Below are positions 7,076 through 39,098 of a DNA stretch of 39,098 nucleotides, one piece after another. The stretch lies in NCBI GenBank assembly GCA_012519835.1, contig JAAYPJ010000088.1, forward strand, positions 1 to 39,098, read 5' to 3'. Origin of the DNA: Clostridiales bacterium (lineage in GTDB: Bacteria; Bacillota; Clostridia; Peptostreptococcales; Natronincolaceae). Numbering within the stretch: the stretch's first letter is position 1; every line of letters begins with the position of its first letter. Position numbers and translations under genes: made by a program. Under the pieces are notes generated by a model. That model saw only the letters and a program-made list of their open reading frames with translations. It searched no databases and was not told the DNA's origin.

Positions 7076-7147
7076 GATGCGGCAGGGGGACGCTTGATGC
7101 GGCATGGGGACGCTTTGTGTGGCAGGGGGACGTTTTGTTTGCCATAT
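7076..7147 (+). repeat. GGGGACG hairpin-repeat cluster, copy 1
   Basis: Three consecutive units: ATGCGGCAGGGGGACGCTTG, ATGCGGCATGGGGACGCTTT and TGTGGCAGGGGGACGTTTTG, the last closed by TTTGCCATA. The first two units recur in the same order, inverted, at 24426-24478. The 193-bp gap between the exporter and the chromate transporter contains nothing else that could be recognised. Confidence 0.65.
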
Positions 7148-22768: not shown

Positions 22769-23298
22769 TAAAGGTACTCAGTTATATTTCGATTATAGCC
22801 ATACCTCTGATGATGACCGTTATACTGTTACATGGTTGGGTCAAGGGAGTAAACATGTATGATTGTTTCGTGGAGGGCGCAGCAGAAGGGTTTAAAACTT
22901 CAATCAGGATTATGCCCTATTTGGTTGCTATATTTATTGCGGTAGGGCTTATGAGAAAATCCGGTTTTATCGATTATTTAATAAATCTTGCCAATCCGTT
23001 GATGACTTTTGTCGGTGTACCCCCTGAGGTATTGCCTTTAGTTATAATGAGACCTATTTCAGGGAGTGGCGCGTTGGCTATTTTGAGGGATATCCTGAAT
23101 TCATACGGTCCGGACAGTTTTATCGGCAGATTGAGTTCTACCATGATGGGGTCCGCAGAAACTATTTTTTATACAATGGCGGTATATTTCGGTTCCGTGG
23201 GAGTTAAAAAAGGGAGGCATACATTGGGGGCCGCGTTGATATCCCATTTAGCTTCCATAATAGCAGCTGTTGTTGTCTGTACATATCTGTTTTTATAA
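22765..23298 (+). CDS. spmB: Spore maturation protein B
   Basis: 177 aa, partner of SpmA in the same membrane family. Key stretches: AEGFKTSIRIMPYLVAIFIAVG (in two halves about 39-50 and 51-60), MRKSGFIDYL, PLVIMRPISGSGALAIL (about 91-107) and DSFIGRLSSTMMGSAETIFY. It is the last gene of the two-gene sporulation operon. A GGGGACG hairpin repeat begins at its stop codon and may serve as terminator. The dacB gene that accompanies spmAB in Bacillus is not here. Confidence 0.92.
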   Translation: MIKVLSYISIIAIPLMMTVILLHGWVKGVNMYDCFVEGAAEGFKTSIRIMPYLVAIFIAVGLMRKSGFIDYLINLANPLMTFVGVPPEVLPLVIMRPISGSGALAILRDILNSYGPDSFIGRLSSTMMGSAETIFYTMAVYFGSVGVKKGRHTLGAALISHLASIIAAVVVCTYLFL

Positions 23299-23329
23299 TG
23301 TGGCACGGGGACGCTTTGTTTGCCACATT
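23297..23329 (+). repeat. GGGGACG hairpin repeat, copy 3
   Basis: AATGTGGCA, CGGGGACGCTTTGTT, TGCCACATT: a 9-bp perfect stem starting in the spmB stop codon. Confidence 0.75.
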
Positions 23330-23402
23330 CTCCCGCCACCCCGGATGCAGGAAATCAGGAAAAATTAAATCCGGCAGTTAGGGTATATATTTCAGTCTGA
23401 TG

Positions 23403-23431
23403 TTGACAATATAACTAGTAAAGTTTATCGT
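23403..23431 (+). promoter_or_regulatory. Possible promoter of the metG T-box transcript
   Basis: TTGACA (23403-23408), 17-nt spacer, TATCGT (23426-23431). The -10 is weak. If used, about 180 nt including one repeat hairpin precede the T-box. Confidence 0.3.
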
Positions 23432-23462
23432 ATTATTATATAATATTAATTACAAAAGCGGC

Positions 23463-23493
23463 ATGTGGCACGGGGACGCTTTGTTTGCCACAT
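23463..23493 (+). repeat. GGGGACG hairpin repeat, copy 4
   Basis: ATGTGGCA, CGGGGACGCTTTGTT, TGCCACAT: identical in sequence to copy 3 across stem and loop. Confidence 0.75.
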
Positions 23494-23614: not shown

Positions 23615-23898
23615 ATTATCCAAAAGTAATGATGGGAAGAGTAGGCAGTGGAATTAGCAACAGAGAGCCGGGAAAGGTGAAAGCCGGTGCTAGTAAAACT
23701 GGCTGAATATGGTCCCTGAACCTCATGGTCGAACAGCCAAAATCGGATTGGCCTTTAAACCATGGCGGTATTGCATCCGTTAACAATGCAAGGTGATAAA
23801 AGTCACTTACCGAGTTTATTATCGTGAGATAATAATAAATTAGGGTGGTAACGCGAGCATATCCTCGTCCCTGTATATTTGGGGACGGGGATTTATTT
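23615..23898 (+). ncRNA. T-box leader, methionine specifier
   Basis: Stem I features include CAGAGAGCC near 23671 and GGTGAAAGCC. The specifier stretch is GGCTGAATATGGTCC, with ATG at 23709-23711. The T-box itself is AGGGTGGTAACGCG (23842-23855). The UGGU bulge suits a tRNA with discriminator A such as tRNA-Met. The first gene downstream is metG, which supports methionine. Confidence 0.92.
23863..23898 (+). terminator. Terminator of the metG T-box
   Basis: CCTCGTCCC pairs with GGGACGGGG across TGTATATTTG, followed by ATTTATTTAT. Confidence 0.85.
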
Positions 23899-23899
23899 A

Positions 23900-24020
23900 T
23901 GACCTAACCCGATCCGACACTCAGTTAACAATAGGCAGGACATCTCTAATTTAACAAAGATATAAACAAATACCAGATATTATCCTTAGAAAGTCTGAGT
24001 GTCGGATCGTTGGTAGGTCA
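23900..24020 (+). repeat. Nested palindromic repeat, element A
   Basis: Outer arms TGACCTA (23900-23906) and TAGGTCA (24014-24020), flanked inside by ACCC and TTGG. Between them lies a 98-bp inner module (23911-24008) with perfect 14-bp inverted ends GATCCGACACTCAG and CTGAGTGTCGGATC. The sequence AACGCA follows the right arm, as in all copies. It begins two bases after the metG T-box terminator. Confidence 0.8.
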
Positions 24021-24026
24021 AACGCA

Positions 24027-24180
24027 TATTAGAAGTGGGGAGCGGGAAGCGGGTGACCGGAATTCTTGCAAGTATAACCACCACTATACAGTTCGGGTAA
24101 CATACAACCGGATTATTTCTAACTTCTAGCTTCCAACCTCTCACCTCTAATATGAGAGACTGCGGAGAATGACCTAACCC
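24027..24180. repeat. Purine-rich inverted repeat and start of another palindromic unit
   Basis: ATTAGAAGTGGGGAGCGGG (24028 on) is the approximate inverse complement of 24129-24150 (GGAAGC and GAGAGGTG blocks on the other strand). It is followed by GAGACTGCGGAGAATGACCT and AACCCC (24156-24181), which joins the known right end of one large repeat to the left end of the next. 24182-24347 shows further purine-rich and GATTTCC-type fragments but no gene; small frames here are not credible. Confidence 0.5.
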
Positions 24181-24347: not shown

Positions 24348-24478
24348 ATGTGGCAAACAAAGCGTTCCCTTGCCGCACATGTGGCAAACAAAGCGTCCCC
24401 TTGCCGCATGAAGGTGGGGGGGGAATGTGGCAAACAAAGCGTCCCCTTGCCGCATCAAGCGTCCCCTTGCCGCATCCC
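24348..24478 (-). repeat. GGGGACG hairpin-repeat cluster, copies 6-9
   Basis: Units begin ATGTGGCAAACAAAGCG at 24348, ATGTGGCAAACAAAGCG at 24379 and ATGTGGCAAACAAAGCG at 24425, each ending in CCCTTGCCGCA, and a shortened TCAAGCGTCCCCTTGCCGCA ends near 24476. The order of the last two mirrors the cluster at 7076-7147. They lie in the leader of metG. Confidence 0.75.
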
Positions 24479-24510: not shown

Positions 24511-26445
24511 ATGAACAAAGGAAAATTTTATTTAACAACACCAATATACTATCCGAGCGGCAAACTCCACATAGGACACACATACACAACGGTTGCCGCA
24601 GATGCATTGGCAAGATTTAAGAGACTGACGGGATATGATGTCAAATTTTTGACCGGAACAGATGAGCACGGCGAAAAGATACAGGAAGCTGCACAAAAAG
24701 TGGGACTGACGCCAAAAGAATATTTAGACGAAATGGTATCGGGAATAAAAAAGCTTTGGAAGGCAATGGACATTTCCTATGATATTTTTATAAGAACGAC
24801 AGACGAAGAACACAAGCAGAGGGTTCAAAATATATTTCAAAAGCTTTACGATAAGGGGGATATCTACAAAGGCGAATATGAGGGATGGTATTGTACACCT
24901 TGCGAATCTTTTTGGACGGAAAGCCAAATAAAGGAGGGGCATGTATGCCCGGACTGTGACCGTCCTGTATATCTGGCAAAGGAGGAAGCATATTTTTTCA
25001 GGTTATCAAAATACCAAGATAGGCTGATTAAATATTATGAGGAGCATCCGGAAATCTGCTCTCCGCCGTCAAGAAGAAATGAAATGTTAAACAATTTCTT
25101 AAAACCCGGGCTGGAGGATCTCTGTGTATCTCGTACAAGTTTTGATTGGGGCATTCCGGTGCCGTTCGACCCGAAACATATAATATATGTATGGTTTGAC
25201 GCTGTGAGTAACTATATTACTGCATTGGGTTACGGTTCTGAAGACGAAAAACTGTTCAACAAATACTGGCCTGCAGACGTCCATCTGGTGGGGAAGGAAA
25301 TAGTGAGATTCCATACGATAATCTGGCCGATTATGTTGATGGCATTGGAATTGCCGCTACCTAAAATGGTATACGGCCATGGCTGGATATTATTTGATGC
25401 GGATAAAATGTCAAAATCCAAGGGGAATATTGTGTATCCGGAGCCGCTGATAGAACGCTATGGACTGGATGCAATCAAATATTTTCTTTTGAGAGAGTTT
25501 ACATTTGGTCAGGATGGTAATTACACAAACAGGAACTTTATCAACAGACTGAATTCCGATTTGGCCAACGATCTGGGGAACCTTGTGAGCAGAACCATTA
25601 CGATGATTGAAAAATACAACAGTGGAATTATTCCGGAGCCTAAAGAGCCGGGAGAGTTCGACGATGATCTGAAATCGGTTGCGGCTGGAGCATCACAAAA
25701 AGTGGAATCAGCAATCGATAAACTGCAATTTCACGACGGATTGGAAGAAATATGGAAAGTGGTTCGCAGAACAAATAAATATATAGATGAAACCACACCT
25801 TGGATATTGGCAAAGGATGATGCCAACAAGGAAAGACTGGATACGGTGCTTTACAATTTGGCAGATTGCATTAGAATTATATCCGTACTGATAAAACCTT
25901 TTATGGAAGCAACAACTATTGAAATTTGGACACAATTAGGGATTGACAGCGGGCAGGGCACCGCATGGGAAGATACATTCATTTTTGGCAAGATCCCGAC
26001 AGGCGAGAAGGTAAGAAAAAGGGACGTTCTGTTTCCAAGGTTAGATGTGGACAAGGAGGTAGAAGAATTGGAGAAAATGGGCGAAGGGGAGGAAGAAACC
26101 CAAGTCGTTATTGAGCCTAAGGAACAGATAACTATAGATGATTTCAGTAAATTGGAACTTAGGGTGGCTGAGGTATTAAAGGTGGAAAAACACCCTGATG
26201 CAGACAGGTTGTTAGTTTTGCAGTTACAAGTAGGAAATGAAACCAGGCAGGTGGTGTCGGGGATAGCCGAATATTATAAACCTGAACAGTTGGTGGGCAA
26301 AAATTTGATATTGGTAGCCAATCTGAAGCCTGTAAAACTTCGTGGTATTGAATCCCACGGAATGATACTTGCTGCATGTAACGGCAAAGAGTTGGTGCTG
26401 GGCACAATAGACAAAGATATCGCCAGCGGCACGGAAATTAGTTAA
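24511..26445 (+). CDS. metG: Methionyl-tRNA synthetase
   Basis: 644 aa, class I synthetase with a C-terminal tRNA-binding domain. The [20 protein letters not shown] stretch carries the HIGH motif (residues about 18-21), and [11 protein letters not shown] follows. A four-cysteine zinc knuckle is formed by CTPCESFW and CPDCDRP (about 130-153). The catalytic loop is KMSKSKGN (about 299-306). Residues about 535-644 ([20 protein letters not shown] and on) are the EMAP/Trbp-like domain. Zinc and C-terminal domains match MetS of Bacillus, the neighbour of tatD. AGGAGG lies 8 nt before the ATG. It is separated from its T-box terminator by about 610 nt of repeats. Confidence 0.96.
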
Positions 26446-26496
26446 CAATAGTCTAACAATAGTTTAACAATGGTTTAACGATGGTTTAACGATAAT
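26442..26496 (+). repeat. Five tandem 11-bp repeats
   Basis: TTAACAATAGT, CTAACAATAGT, TTAACAATGGT, TTAACGATGGT, TTAACGATAAT: five units of exactly 11 bp, starting in the metG stop codon. Relatives lie at 15271-15310 and 35831-35852. Confidence 0.8.
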
Positions 26497-26706
26497 CCGC
26501 AGACAAACATTACAAATTTGTTCACTCTCCGACACTCAGGTTTTAATAGGAAGGATATTTTTTATTTGTTTGTATCCTTACTAATTCAGAAGTATCCCAA
26601 TTAATTGTTAACTGAGTGTTGGATCGTACAAATTTGATGTTTGGTTGCGTTTGACCTACCATCAATTTGTTACTTCCTTTGGTCGTGCAAATTGGGTTAG
26701 GTCATA
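26497..26706 (-). repeat. Nested palindromic repeat, element B (inverted)
   Basis: Read on the minus strand: TGACCTAACCC (26704-26694), an AATTTG...CAAATT hairpin with ACGACCAAAGGAAGT in its loop, GGTAGGTCA (26660-26652), AACGCAACC, CAAATTTG, then a 99-bp inner module (26626-26528, ends CGATCCAACACTCAG and CTGAGTGTCGGA), and GTGAACAAATTTGTAATGTT to about 26502. It contains both slots of the full unit. Confidence 0.8.
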
Positions 26707-32945: not shown

Positions 32946-32990
32946 ATGTCATTGCTATGAAAACCCTACATTTTTGTCATCTTGAGACGT
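32946..32990 (+). repeat. TTGTCATC-type dispersed repeat, copy 3
   Basis: ATGTCATTGCTATGAAAACC then CTACATTTTTGTCATCTTGA and GACG. See the copies at 1181 and 10431. Confidence 0.55.
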
Positions 32991-33045
32991 GCAGTATGAG
33001 TTCGACCCTCGAAGGGTCCCGGTGTTCAACAGTTGTTCAACATTT

Positions 33046-35404: not shown

Positions 35405-35430
35405 GGAGGTCAAACGCCTCCTTATTTTAT
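35405..35430 (+). terminator. spoVG terminator
   Basis: GGAGG TCAAACG CCTCC followed by TTATTTTAT. The loop with its flanks reads AGGTCAAACGC, the same as the right arm of the palindromic repeats. Confidence 0.7.
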
Positions 35431-35716
35431 GTCCTAACCCGACCCAACACACAGGCTTTCTCAAAATAGTATTTTTGTTTTATCGATACTCTTACTAAAA
35501 TAGGGGTATTTTGTTTATTGTTAACTGAGTGTTGGGTCGATGGTAGGACAAACGCAACGAGAACCAAATTTGCATGATCCGACACTCAGTTTCTCAAATA
35601 GGATACCTTGATTTATGGATAGTTCTACCGGATTGAGAATAACCCTGCTGATTGTTGTTTGAGTGTTGGAGAGTGAACAAATTTGTGTTTCGAGACTGCG
35701 GAGAATGTCCTATACT
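35430..35716 (+). repeat. Nested palindromic repeat, element C (two inner modules)
   Basis: Outer arms TGTCCTA (35430-35436) and TAGGACA (35544-35550) differ from the other copies but still pair. Inner module 1 is 35441-35538 (GACCCAACACACAG ... CTGAGTGTTGGGTC). Then come AACGCAACGAGAACC and CAAATTTGCAT. Inner module 2 is 35576-35670 (GATCCGACACTCAG ... TGAGTGTTGGA). The end is GAGTGAACAAATTTGTGTTT and CGAGACTGCGGAGAATGTCC. It is the fullest copy. Confidence 0.85.
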
Positions 35717-35853
35717 AGAAGTGAGAAGTGAGAGGTGGGAGGCCGGGAGGCGAGAAGTGGGAAATGAGAATTTTTGTAAACATAGTTTTCGCGCCCCGTT
35801 TTCGCCGGTGGTTTTCGGAACCGGTCTTATAACAATCGTTCAACAATCGTTCA
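35717..35853 (+). repeat. Purine-rich stretch and two 11-bp repeats
   Basis: AGAAGTGAGAAGTGAGAGGT, GGGAGGCCGGGAGGCG and AGAAGTGGGAAATGAG form a G/A-rich stretch (35719-35768) related to 24027-24049. AACAATCGTTC occurs twice in tandem at 35831-35852. Nothing in 35391-35952 looks like a gene. TATAAT at 35900-35905 may be the glmU -10. Confidence 0.55.
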
Positions 35854-35952: not shown

Positions 35953-37320
35953 ATGAAGTTAAAAGCAATTATTTTGGCCGCGGGGGAAGGTACAAGAATG
36001 AAATCCAAATTGCCAAAGGTGCTTCATAAGGTTTGCGGGCAAACCATGCTACAACATGTTATAGATGCAGCGAAAAAATCAGGTATAGAGGAATGTATTG
36101 TAGTGATCGGCCATGAAGCGGAAAAAATAAAAAGGAGTCTTTCTTCTGAAATAAAAACCGTGTTTCAGGAAAAACAGTTGGGAACAGGCCATGCGGTAAT
36201 GATGGCGTATGATAGTATCAAGGAGGATACAATATTGGTATTATGCGGGGACGGTCCTTTAATCACGGAAGAAACCCTGAAAGACATGTTAGATTATCAT
36301 AAAAAAGGGGATTTTAAAGCTACGGTGCTTACGGCTGATTTGCCGGATCCGGAAGGTTATGGGAGGATTATCAGGGACACGGAGGGCCGACTGCAAAAAA
36401 TAGTGGAAGAAAAGGATGCTACCGAGGAAGAAAGGTCTATAAGGGAAATCAATTCGGGTATATATTGTTTTGACGGCGGGACATTAAAAGATGCGCTCCC
36501 AAAACTCAGAAACAATAATTCTCAAGGAGAATATTATCTGACGGATATATTGCCGGTTATCCGTGATATGGGTTTCGGGACGGGAGTATATAAAACCCGG
36601 GATTATGAAGAAATTATGGCTGTCAATTCCAGGGAACAATTGGCAGAGGTGGAAGCTATAATGAGAAAAAGAATAGCCAAAAAACATATGAAAGACGGTG
36701 TAACTATAATCAATCCGGAACACACATATATAGAAAAAACTGTTACAATAGGTGTAGATACTACTATATATGCCGGGGCTATATTGACAGGTGATACTGC
36801 AATAGGGGAGGATTGTATTATCGGACAGAACAGCCGCATAGAAAACAGTGTAATAGGTAATGGGGTGGAAGTGCAAAGTTCTACAATTATCAGCAGTAGT
36901 GTGGGGGATAGCACGACTATAGGTCCATATGCCTATTTACGTCCAAATAGCAATGTCGGCAAACATGTTAAAATCGGTGGTTTTGTGGAGGTCAAAAATT
37001 CGAAGATAGATGATTATTCCAGGGCCTCTCATTTGTCCTATATAGGGGACGCAGATGTAGGTAGGAATGTAAACATAGGTTGTGGAGTTGTTTTTGTTAA
37101 TTATGACGGTAAAGATAAAAACAGATCTATAATAGAGGACAATGTCTTTGTAGGTAGCAATGTAAATCTGGTTGCTCCGGTGGTTATCGGAAAAGACGGA
37201 TATATAGCCTGTGGTTCTACCATCACTTCGGGAGTGCCGAGTGGGGCTCTGGCAATAGCAAGAGCACGTCAGGAAAATAAAGAAGGTTGGGTAGATAAAA
37301 AAGGATTATCGAGAGAATAA
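35953..37320 (+). CDS. glmU: Bifunctional UDP-GlcNAc pyrophosphorylase / glucosamine-1-phosphate acetyltransferase
   Basis: 455 aa, full length. N-terminal uridylyltransferase: [20 protein letters not shown] (about 5-24), [17 protein letters not shown] (about 96-104) and GYGRIIR. The C-terminal left-handed beta-helix starts near 250 with hexapeptide repeats, and shows [20 protein letters not shown] (about 321-340), [13 protein letters not shown] (about 358), FVNYDGKDK and [10 protein letters not shown]. It makes UDP-GlcNAc from glucosamine-1-phosphate for peptidoglycan and teichoic acids. GAGGTGA precedes the ATG. spoVG-glmU-prs is a conserved block. Confidence 0.96.
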
Positions 37321-38308: not shown

Positions 38309-38866
38309 ATGCATATAATATTTGGGCTTGGAAACCCAGGAAGGAAATACGGTGCCACAAGACATAATGTAGGGTTTGAAACAATAGATTTGTTGGCAAA
38401 AAGAAACAACATAGAAGTGAAACAATTAAAATTCAAAGCATTATACGGGGAAGGGTATATCGGCGAAAAAAAAGTGATGTTGGCCAAACCTCAGACATTT
38501 ATGAATTTGAGCGGGCAAAGCCTTCTGGATATAGTGCAATTTTATAAAATAGATACCAAGAACATTGTAGTAGTCTATGATGATGCGGATATAGAGCTGG
38601 GTTCTATCAGAATAAGGGAAAAGGGAAGCTCCGGGAGCCATAACGGAATGAAATCCATTATATATCAAATACAAACTGATCAGTTCCCGAGGGTTAGGAT
38701 AGGTATCGGCAAACCGCAATTCGGGGGCCTAATAGGTTATGTTTTGGGAAGGTTTCAAAAAGAAGAGATACCCGTAATACTCGAAGCGATAGAAAGAGCC
38801 GCTCTGGCATGTGAAACCATAGTTACCGACGGGGTTTCTTCGGCAATGAATAAATATAATGGCTAA
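38309..38866 (+). CDS. pth: Peptidyl-tRNA hydrolase
   Basis: 185 aa. It releases peptides from peptidyl-tRNA dropped off ribosomes. IFGLGNPGRKYGATRHNVGF at the N-terminus holds the catalytic His (His20 of E. coli), followed by KPQTFMNLSG with the conserved Asn, VVYDDADIELG with the catalytic Asp, and GSSGSHNGMKSI. The start at ATG 38309 has AAGGTGA 5 nt upstream; an in-frame GTG at 38300 overlaps that site and is less likely. It closes the spoVG-glmU-prs-pth block; mfd, the next gene in Bacillus, is not seen before the window ends. Confidence 0.95.
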   Translation: MHIIFGLGNPGRKYGATRHNVGFETIDLLAKRNNIEVKQLKFKALYGEGYIGEKKVMLAKPQTFMNLSGQSLLDIVQFYKIDTKNIVVVYDDADIELGSIRIREKGSSGSHNGMKSIIYQIQTDQFPRVRIGIGKPQFGGLIGYVLGRFQKEEIPVILEAIERAALACETIVTDGVSSAMNKYNG

Positions 38867-38983
38867 TGCACATGGGTCTAACAATGCGTCGTATTATATA
38901 TTTAAAATATTTGTGTATTACACTCTCATCGCGGTTTGAAATTTTGATAGTTCCGGCAACTCCCTGAAAACAAAAAACCTTTA

Positions 38984-39098
38984 TGACCTAACCCAATTTG
39001 TAAAACAAATTGATGGTAGGTCAAACGCAACGAGAACCAAATTTGCATGACCGAAGGGAATGAACAAATTTGTGTTTCGAGACTGCAATAATTCGCAA
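38984..39098 (+). repeat. Nested palindromic repeat, element D (short modules, no 98-bp insert)
   Basis: Arms TGACCTA (38984-38990) and TAGGTCA (39017-39023). The first slot holds only AATTTGT-AAA-ACAAATT (38995-39011). After AACGCAACGAGAAC comes CAAATTTG (39038-39045), the core CATGACCGAAGGGAATGAA, and CAAATTTG again (39065-39072), then TGTTTCGAGACTGC. It shows the family without the large inner module. 38867-38983 contains nothing recognisable. Confidence 0.8.

Follow-up and report, generated by a model that had tools for sequence, protein, structure and literature searches.

Nested modules in the window

Four copies of a ~98-bp unit, here named Y, lie in the window (the whole 39,098-nucleotide stretch of DNA that was analysed), each within a longer host hairpin. 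Module A, of the 99–102 bp class, occupies positions 23910–24009 on the + strand and matches a covariance model of the unit (R1, described below) with 105.8 bits. It is in + orientation relative to host hairpin 1, ATGACCTAACC..GGTAGGTCAAACGC (23899–24026, +), which was delimited from sequence, folds as one long hairpin (fold z −6.0) and is located directly 3′ of a T-box terminator, upstream of metG. The T-box leader at this site (23620–23875) was confirmed by Rfam. The remainder of composite A, read from sequence (24027–24179, +), consists of hairpin 2 with an unrelated insert, GAGACTGCGG and a second ATGACCTAACC. Module B (26525–26626, −; R1 match 85.2 bits) lies within a host hairpin 2 with CAAATTTG arms (26500–26645, −; sequence, fold z −4.4), in a host element that lies between metG and tatD and reads on the − strand. 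The hairpin 1 belonging to this element (26646–26706, −; sequence and fold) has a short tip, CAATTTG..CGACC AAA GG..CAAATTG, in place of a module.

A further host hairpin 1 (35429–35555, +; sequence, fold z −6.1), 3′ of a terminator-like GGAGG..CCTCC stem and a T-rich tract, holds module C1 (35440–35539, −), which is inverted relative to A in the same kind of host hairpin (R1 match on the − strand, 96.7 bits). The hairpin 2 at 35555–35700 (+; fold z −3.1) holds module C2, a divergent copy (35575–35673, −; R1 match 62.1 bits). A module-free host element, identified from sequence, is found at 38983–39098 (+) and comprises hairpin 1 with the tip CAATTTGTAAAACAAATTG followed by hairpin 2. The model matches bear out the modules of the preliminary description: four are present at these places, with inverted ends of 12–15 bp; it spoke of a five-element comparison, but a fifth was not among the elements it listed.

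Several other repeats were observed in the window. An 11-bp unit, TTTAACNATNG, forms arrays at which host elements are inserted (26440–26495, and many host flanks elsewhere). A multi-copy sequence of ~130 bp, GTCTAAT..GCGTCGTATATTTAAAATATCTG..CTCTCATCGCGG..AAAAAACCTTT, lies directly 5′ of host elements (window 38860–39098; also L076, L084, L095, L096, L099 and L112); several of its copies are at contig ends, and it perhaps adjoins a collapsed repeat, for instance an rRNA operon. REP-like repeats of the GGCAAACAAAGCGTCCCC type are located at 7077–7147, 23298–23490 and 24348–24476, and also flank a RAYT-like gene elsewhere (L127). The short repeat TTGCTATGAAAACCCTACATTTTTGTCATC is found at 32947–33018 and near 1188, 10437 and 31486; the congener G001 contains over 30 matches to it.

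Copies, ends and interior of Y

Copies of Y were counted by pattern and covariance-model searches of its own genome (G000, 1.63 Mb), where 25 matches to the end-pair pattern were found, both strands counted, compared with none to a control pattern. R1, built from an alignment of 17 copies, recovers the complete copies, with at least 17 full-length in the own genome and six (one below 50 bits) in G001, the sole congener examined and the same genome as G081 (MAG AS21ysBPME_83). Beyond A, B, C1 and C2, about 20 copies are spread over these two genomes. R1 detected no copy among 77 other relatives or the genomes of S. saalensis, T. pigra and UBA6113, and Y has so far been found only in one genus of Clostridia-like bacteria. 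Viral contigs yielded 13 pattern matches with a best model score of 25 bits (E 0.013), which we treated as chance.

The constant length claimed earlier holds in 23 copies, which measure 99–102 bp including 15-bp arms. Copies of other lengths or with unpaired ends, which the preliminary description had named as evidence against its reading, form a minority that is longer, truncated, cut by contig ends or recombined (C79, C10, C25, C128, C139 and C151). C79 has 163 bp between its ends and contains an internal repeat, C10 has 99 bp compared with the usual 91–94, C25 is internally deleted, C139 is a lone end close to a contig end, and the ends of C151 come from two different host hairpins. Near-identical copies, also named as contrary evidence, are rare, with one pair at 97%. 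The structure of C151 (G000, 37012–37160), in which the left half of a module hosted by hairpin 1 is joined to the right half of one hosted by hairpin 2, is what recombination would produce between a pair of modules in one element like C1 and C2 (window 35429–35720).

The ends of Y itself, CCRACACTCAG..CTGAGTGTYGG, are almost invariant. In the 17-copy alignment 90% of the arm cells are paired. Changes on both sides affect 14 cells, compared with 6.2 in shuffles (0/500). These two-sided changes fall mainly at columns 1–4/105–108, the arm of the host hairpin; within the 11-bp end of Y the sole pair that varies often (columns 7/102) is standard-paired in only 14 of the 17 copies. The ends do vary in step, as had been proposed, but most of this variation belongs to the host hairpins and not to Y. 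The arms of hairpin 1 also covary strongly without Y: over 47 module-free copies, own arms score 6.46/7 and swapped arms 4.09/7.

The insides had been described as hardly alike. This was an artefact of orientation, since A and C1 had been compared in opposite orientations. Across the 17 copies, interiors in the same orientation have a mean identity of 63% (mean z 4.2; z > 3 in 76 of 136 pairs), compared with 53.5% when reversed (z −0.9; z > 3 in no pair). The interior of Y is homologous and conserved once the flip is undone.

RNAalifold recovered the terminal stem alone and no internal helix in Y. The best helix picked by hand within the interior was 69.6% paired, compared with 65.1% in shuffles and 63% in a slid register, and interior folding z-scores were near 0 on both strands (about −0.1 to −0.7). 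Of the central hairpins reported earlier, AAGGATA/TATCCTT is indeed present in B, but no internal helix is conserved across copies. Rfam searches (gathering and E-value thresholds) returned no match to Y or its host at the gathering threshold; sub-gathering matches to MIR405 and mir-10 were set aside as eukaryotic microRNA families.

Host hairpins, orientation and presence between species

Y sits at the apex of three kinds of host hairpin in its own genus, and all complete copies read are inside a hairpin host. Hairpins 1 and 2 (hp1 and hp2) are both part of a repeat of ~110 bp with two hairpins, ATGMCCTAACC-hp1-GGTAGGTCAAACGCAACGA-hp2-GAGACTGCG, with ATGMCCTAACC..GGTAGGTCAAACGC..GAGACTGCG as the host of A and C1. 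The third host, hp3, is a REP-like TGTCATYCTGA..GAAGRATCT hairpin. In hp2, GA-CC-AAA-GG-GA becomes GA-TCC-Y-GGA-GA and in hp3, GA-GC-GAA-GC-GA becomes GA-CCC-Y-GGG-GA, so that Y stands in place of the apex above a GA/GA step; the apex of hp1 is likewise replaced, not interrupted. The copies hosted by hp3 form a clade of their own (support 99/98), as expected of passengers.

The two-hairpin element typically lies on the immediate 3′ side of terminator T-tracts or other hairpins, or within a TGTCATTCTGAG hairpin. Of 49 distinct module-free copies, 34 are preceded by eight bases of which six or more are T; the 5′ flank is TTT in 32 and AAG in 9, and the two hairpins are present. The central motif of the element was found in Sedimentibacter, Tissierella and related MAGs. 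T-box or T-box-like leaders immediately precede host elements at L077, L094, L117 and L159 (2641–2990); the T-box was confirmed by Rfam in L159 of S. saalensis, and those of L094 and L117 are only T-box-like, with a GGGTGGNACGCG/GGGTGGTACCGCG-type motif. The two-hairpin element, widespread in Tissierellia just 3′ of terminators, would serve as a landing platform for nested repeats.

Within hp1, Y occurs in both orientations (seven + and seven − in the own genome and G001), and within hp3 it has one orientation in five of five copies. A maximum-likelihood tree of the hp1 copies is poorly resolved and orientation is weakly clustered on it: the best tree has three orientation changes, compared with 5.0 after shuffling, and its starred branches force only one. 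This suggests that few flips would suffice. At the scfA|scfB site, which has homologous flanks in both genomes, Y is − in G000 (C110b) and + in G001 (C282), with interiors 84.7% identical. A paralogue 1.1 kb from C110b, C110a, is 85.9% identical to it and thus equally close, which makes copying from C110a a possibility here, at the one orthologous site on which in-place inversion rests. Comparing fixed sites, as the preliminary description had proposed, revealed presence and absence between the own genome and its congener. At the sites of A and B the element is absent from G001, which has other repeats there, and two Y sites of G001 contain other sequence in G000.

We searched both genomes, which are drafts, for a mobiliser and found no transposase or autonomous parent with Y ends. 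In the own genome, 33 of 34 end motifs belong to known copies (complete, truncated or at contig ends), and the remaining one is an isolated end close to where a contig stops. The motifs of G001 correspond to known copies, a contig-end fragment in C243 and a match in C386, which was discarded as it does not resemble Y. No target duplication was seen in the copies read, where the flanks of Y are the complementary arms of the host hairpin and not direct repeats. Y1_Tnp genes are present in G000 and G001 as well as in Sedimentibacter and Tissierella genomes. The ends of the host element were not found at the flanks of Y1/RAYT genes in G000, G001 and Tissierellia genomes, bar one 5′-end motif with a single mismatch (L267), and these genes were rejected as mobilisers on that ground. 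At the RAYT-like gene of G000 (L127) the flanking repeat is a different one, GGGGACGCTTTGTTTGCC.

Origin of Y and comparison with known systems

On balance, Y is probably a non-autonomous nested palindromic repeat (MITE- or REP-like) of hairpin apices that spreads mainly as a passenger of its hosts, and its arms and flips could both be products of template switching. The host elements would be moved by some transposition or recombination machinery, and Y may have no function for the cell. During replication, template switching between the arms of a hairpin could keep the arms complementary, giving the variation in step, and could also invert the spacer, in this case Y. Such switching between inverted-repeat arms has been reported to make the arms homogeneous and to turn spacers round (PMC8604942), and also to generate compensatory changes through which stem pairing is restored (PMC8794818). 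As arm covariation can arise by such homogenisation, selection on RNA shape would not be required. Y is a natural example of arm covariation, which is usually taken to prove a functional RNA, standing beside an interior in both orientations, and this combination is as template switching between hairpin arms predicts.

The preliminary description had favoured an RNA-like unit with a freely diverging interior and selection on shape. That Y is a structured non-coding or cis-regulatory RNA element of this kind is very unlikely, even though a long hairpin with compensatory arm changes and the T-box leaders preceding some host copies would suit it. The orientation flips already weaken it, as Y takes both orientations within one host hairpin, even at an orthologous site; furthermore, the interior is homologous and has no conserved fold, host elements read either with the genes (A) or against them (B), Rfam gave no credible match, and the element is missing at orthologous sites. 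Its other suggestion, a MITE-like unit, agrees with the multiple copies, the TIR-like ends, presence and absence between congeners and the lack of coding capacity, but not with the failure to find a target duplication or parent. A classical MITE, an IS deletion derivative with terminal inverted repeats of ~12 bp inserted independently by a transposase at palindromic targets in either orientation, is doubtful. Near-fixed TIR-like ends, uniform length, both orientations and three hairpin hosts would all fit, and IS elements are known to enter REPs at the dyad axis (PMC1525189). Against this stand the searches for a parent IS or a longer element with Y ends and for a target duplication, which found neither, the replacement and not interruption of the apex in hp1 and hp3, and the single orientation of all five hp3 copies.

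We consider it unlikely that the whole host element, Y included, derives from a single-strand transposon of IS200/IS605 or RAYT type, with its hairpins kept by binding of a Y1 (HUH) transposase. The two hairpins near its ends, the lack of terminal inverted repeats, the 5′ flank preference (..TTT|ATG) and the Y1_Tnp genes in the genomes named above would be in keeping with such an origin, but no Y1 gene was found clearly bounded by host-element ends, and the own RAYT-like gene is flanked by its different repeat. It is similarly improbable that Y is a mobile module that exchanges DNA-hairpin apices above the GA/GA step, colonising any such palindromic repeat through an enzyme or replication-coupled process new to description.

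Taken as a nested passenger repeat, Y resembles several known systems in part. Like REP/BIME palindromes with RAYT (PMC2817692), it is a multi-copy intergenic palindrome that forms mosaic composites and spreads without genes of its own; it differs in that the module, of ~98 bp, has a long interior that is not palindromic and is itself lodged at the apex of other palindromes, and an association with RAYT was not found. ISPsy8, ISRm22 and IS621/IS110 similarly enter hairpin-forming repeats at their axis of symmetry (PMC1525189), but these elements encode transposases and ISPsy8 leaves a 3-bp direct repeat, whereas both gene and duplication are lacking in Y. Bacterial MITEs share its short, non-coding, interspersed form, TIR-like ends and kept length; unlike them, Y was found with neither a parent element nor a target duplication, and its complete copies, where read, are lodged in a hairpin host. 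Group IIC introns insert 3′ of terminator stem-loops. The host element likewise lies directly 3′ of terminator stems, but it is only ~110 bp long, with two hairpins and no reverse transcriptase; intron domains were sought by Rfam scan alone. Template-switched inverted repeats (PMC8604942; PMC8794818) match Y in that paired arms change together and the spacer lies either way round; the published examples concern yeast coding DNA and RNA genes, whereas Y is a dispersed repeat for which we infer switching from the pattern only. No description of these repeats, including the two-hairpin element, was found in the literature searched. Y is new in its sequence and its hairpin-apex niche, and is otherwise of a known kind.
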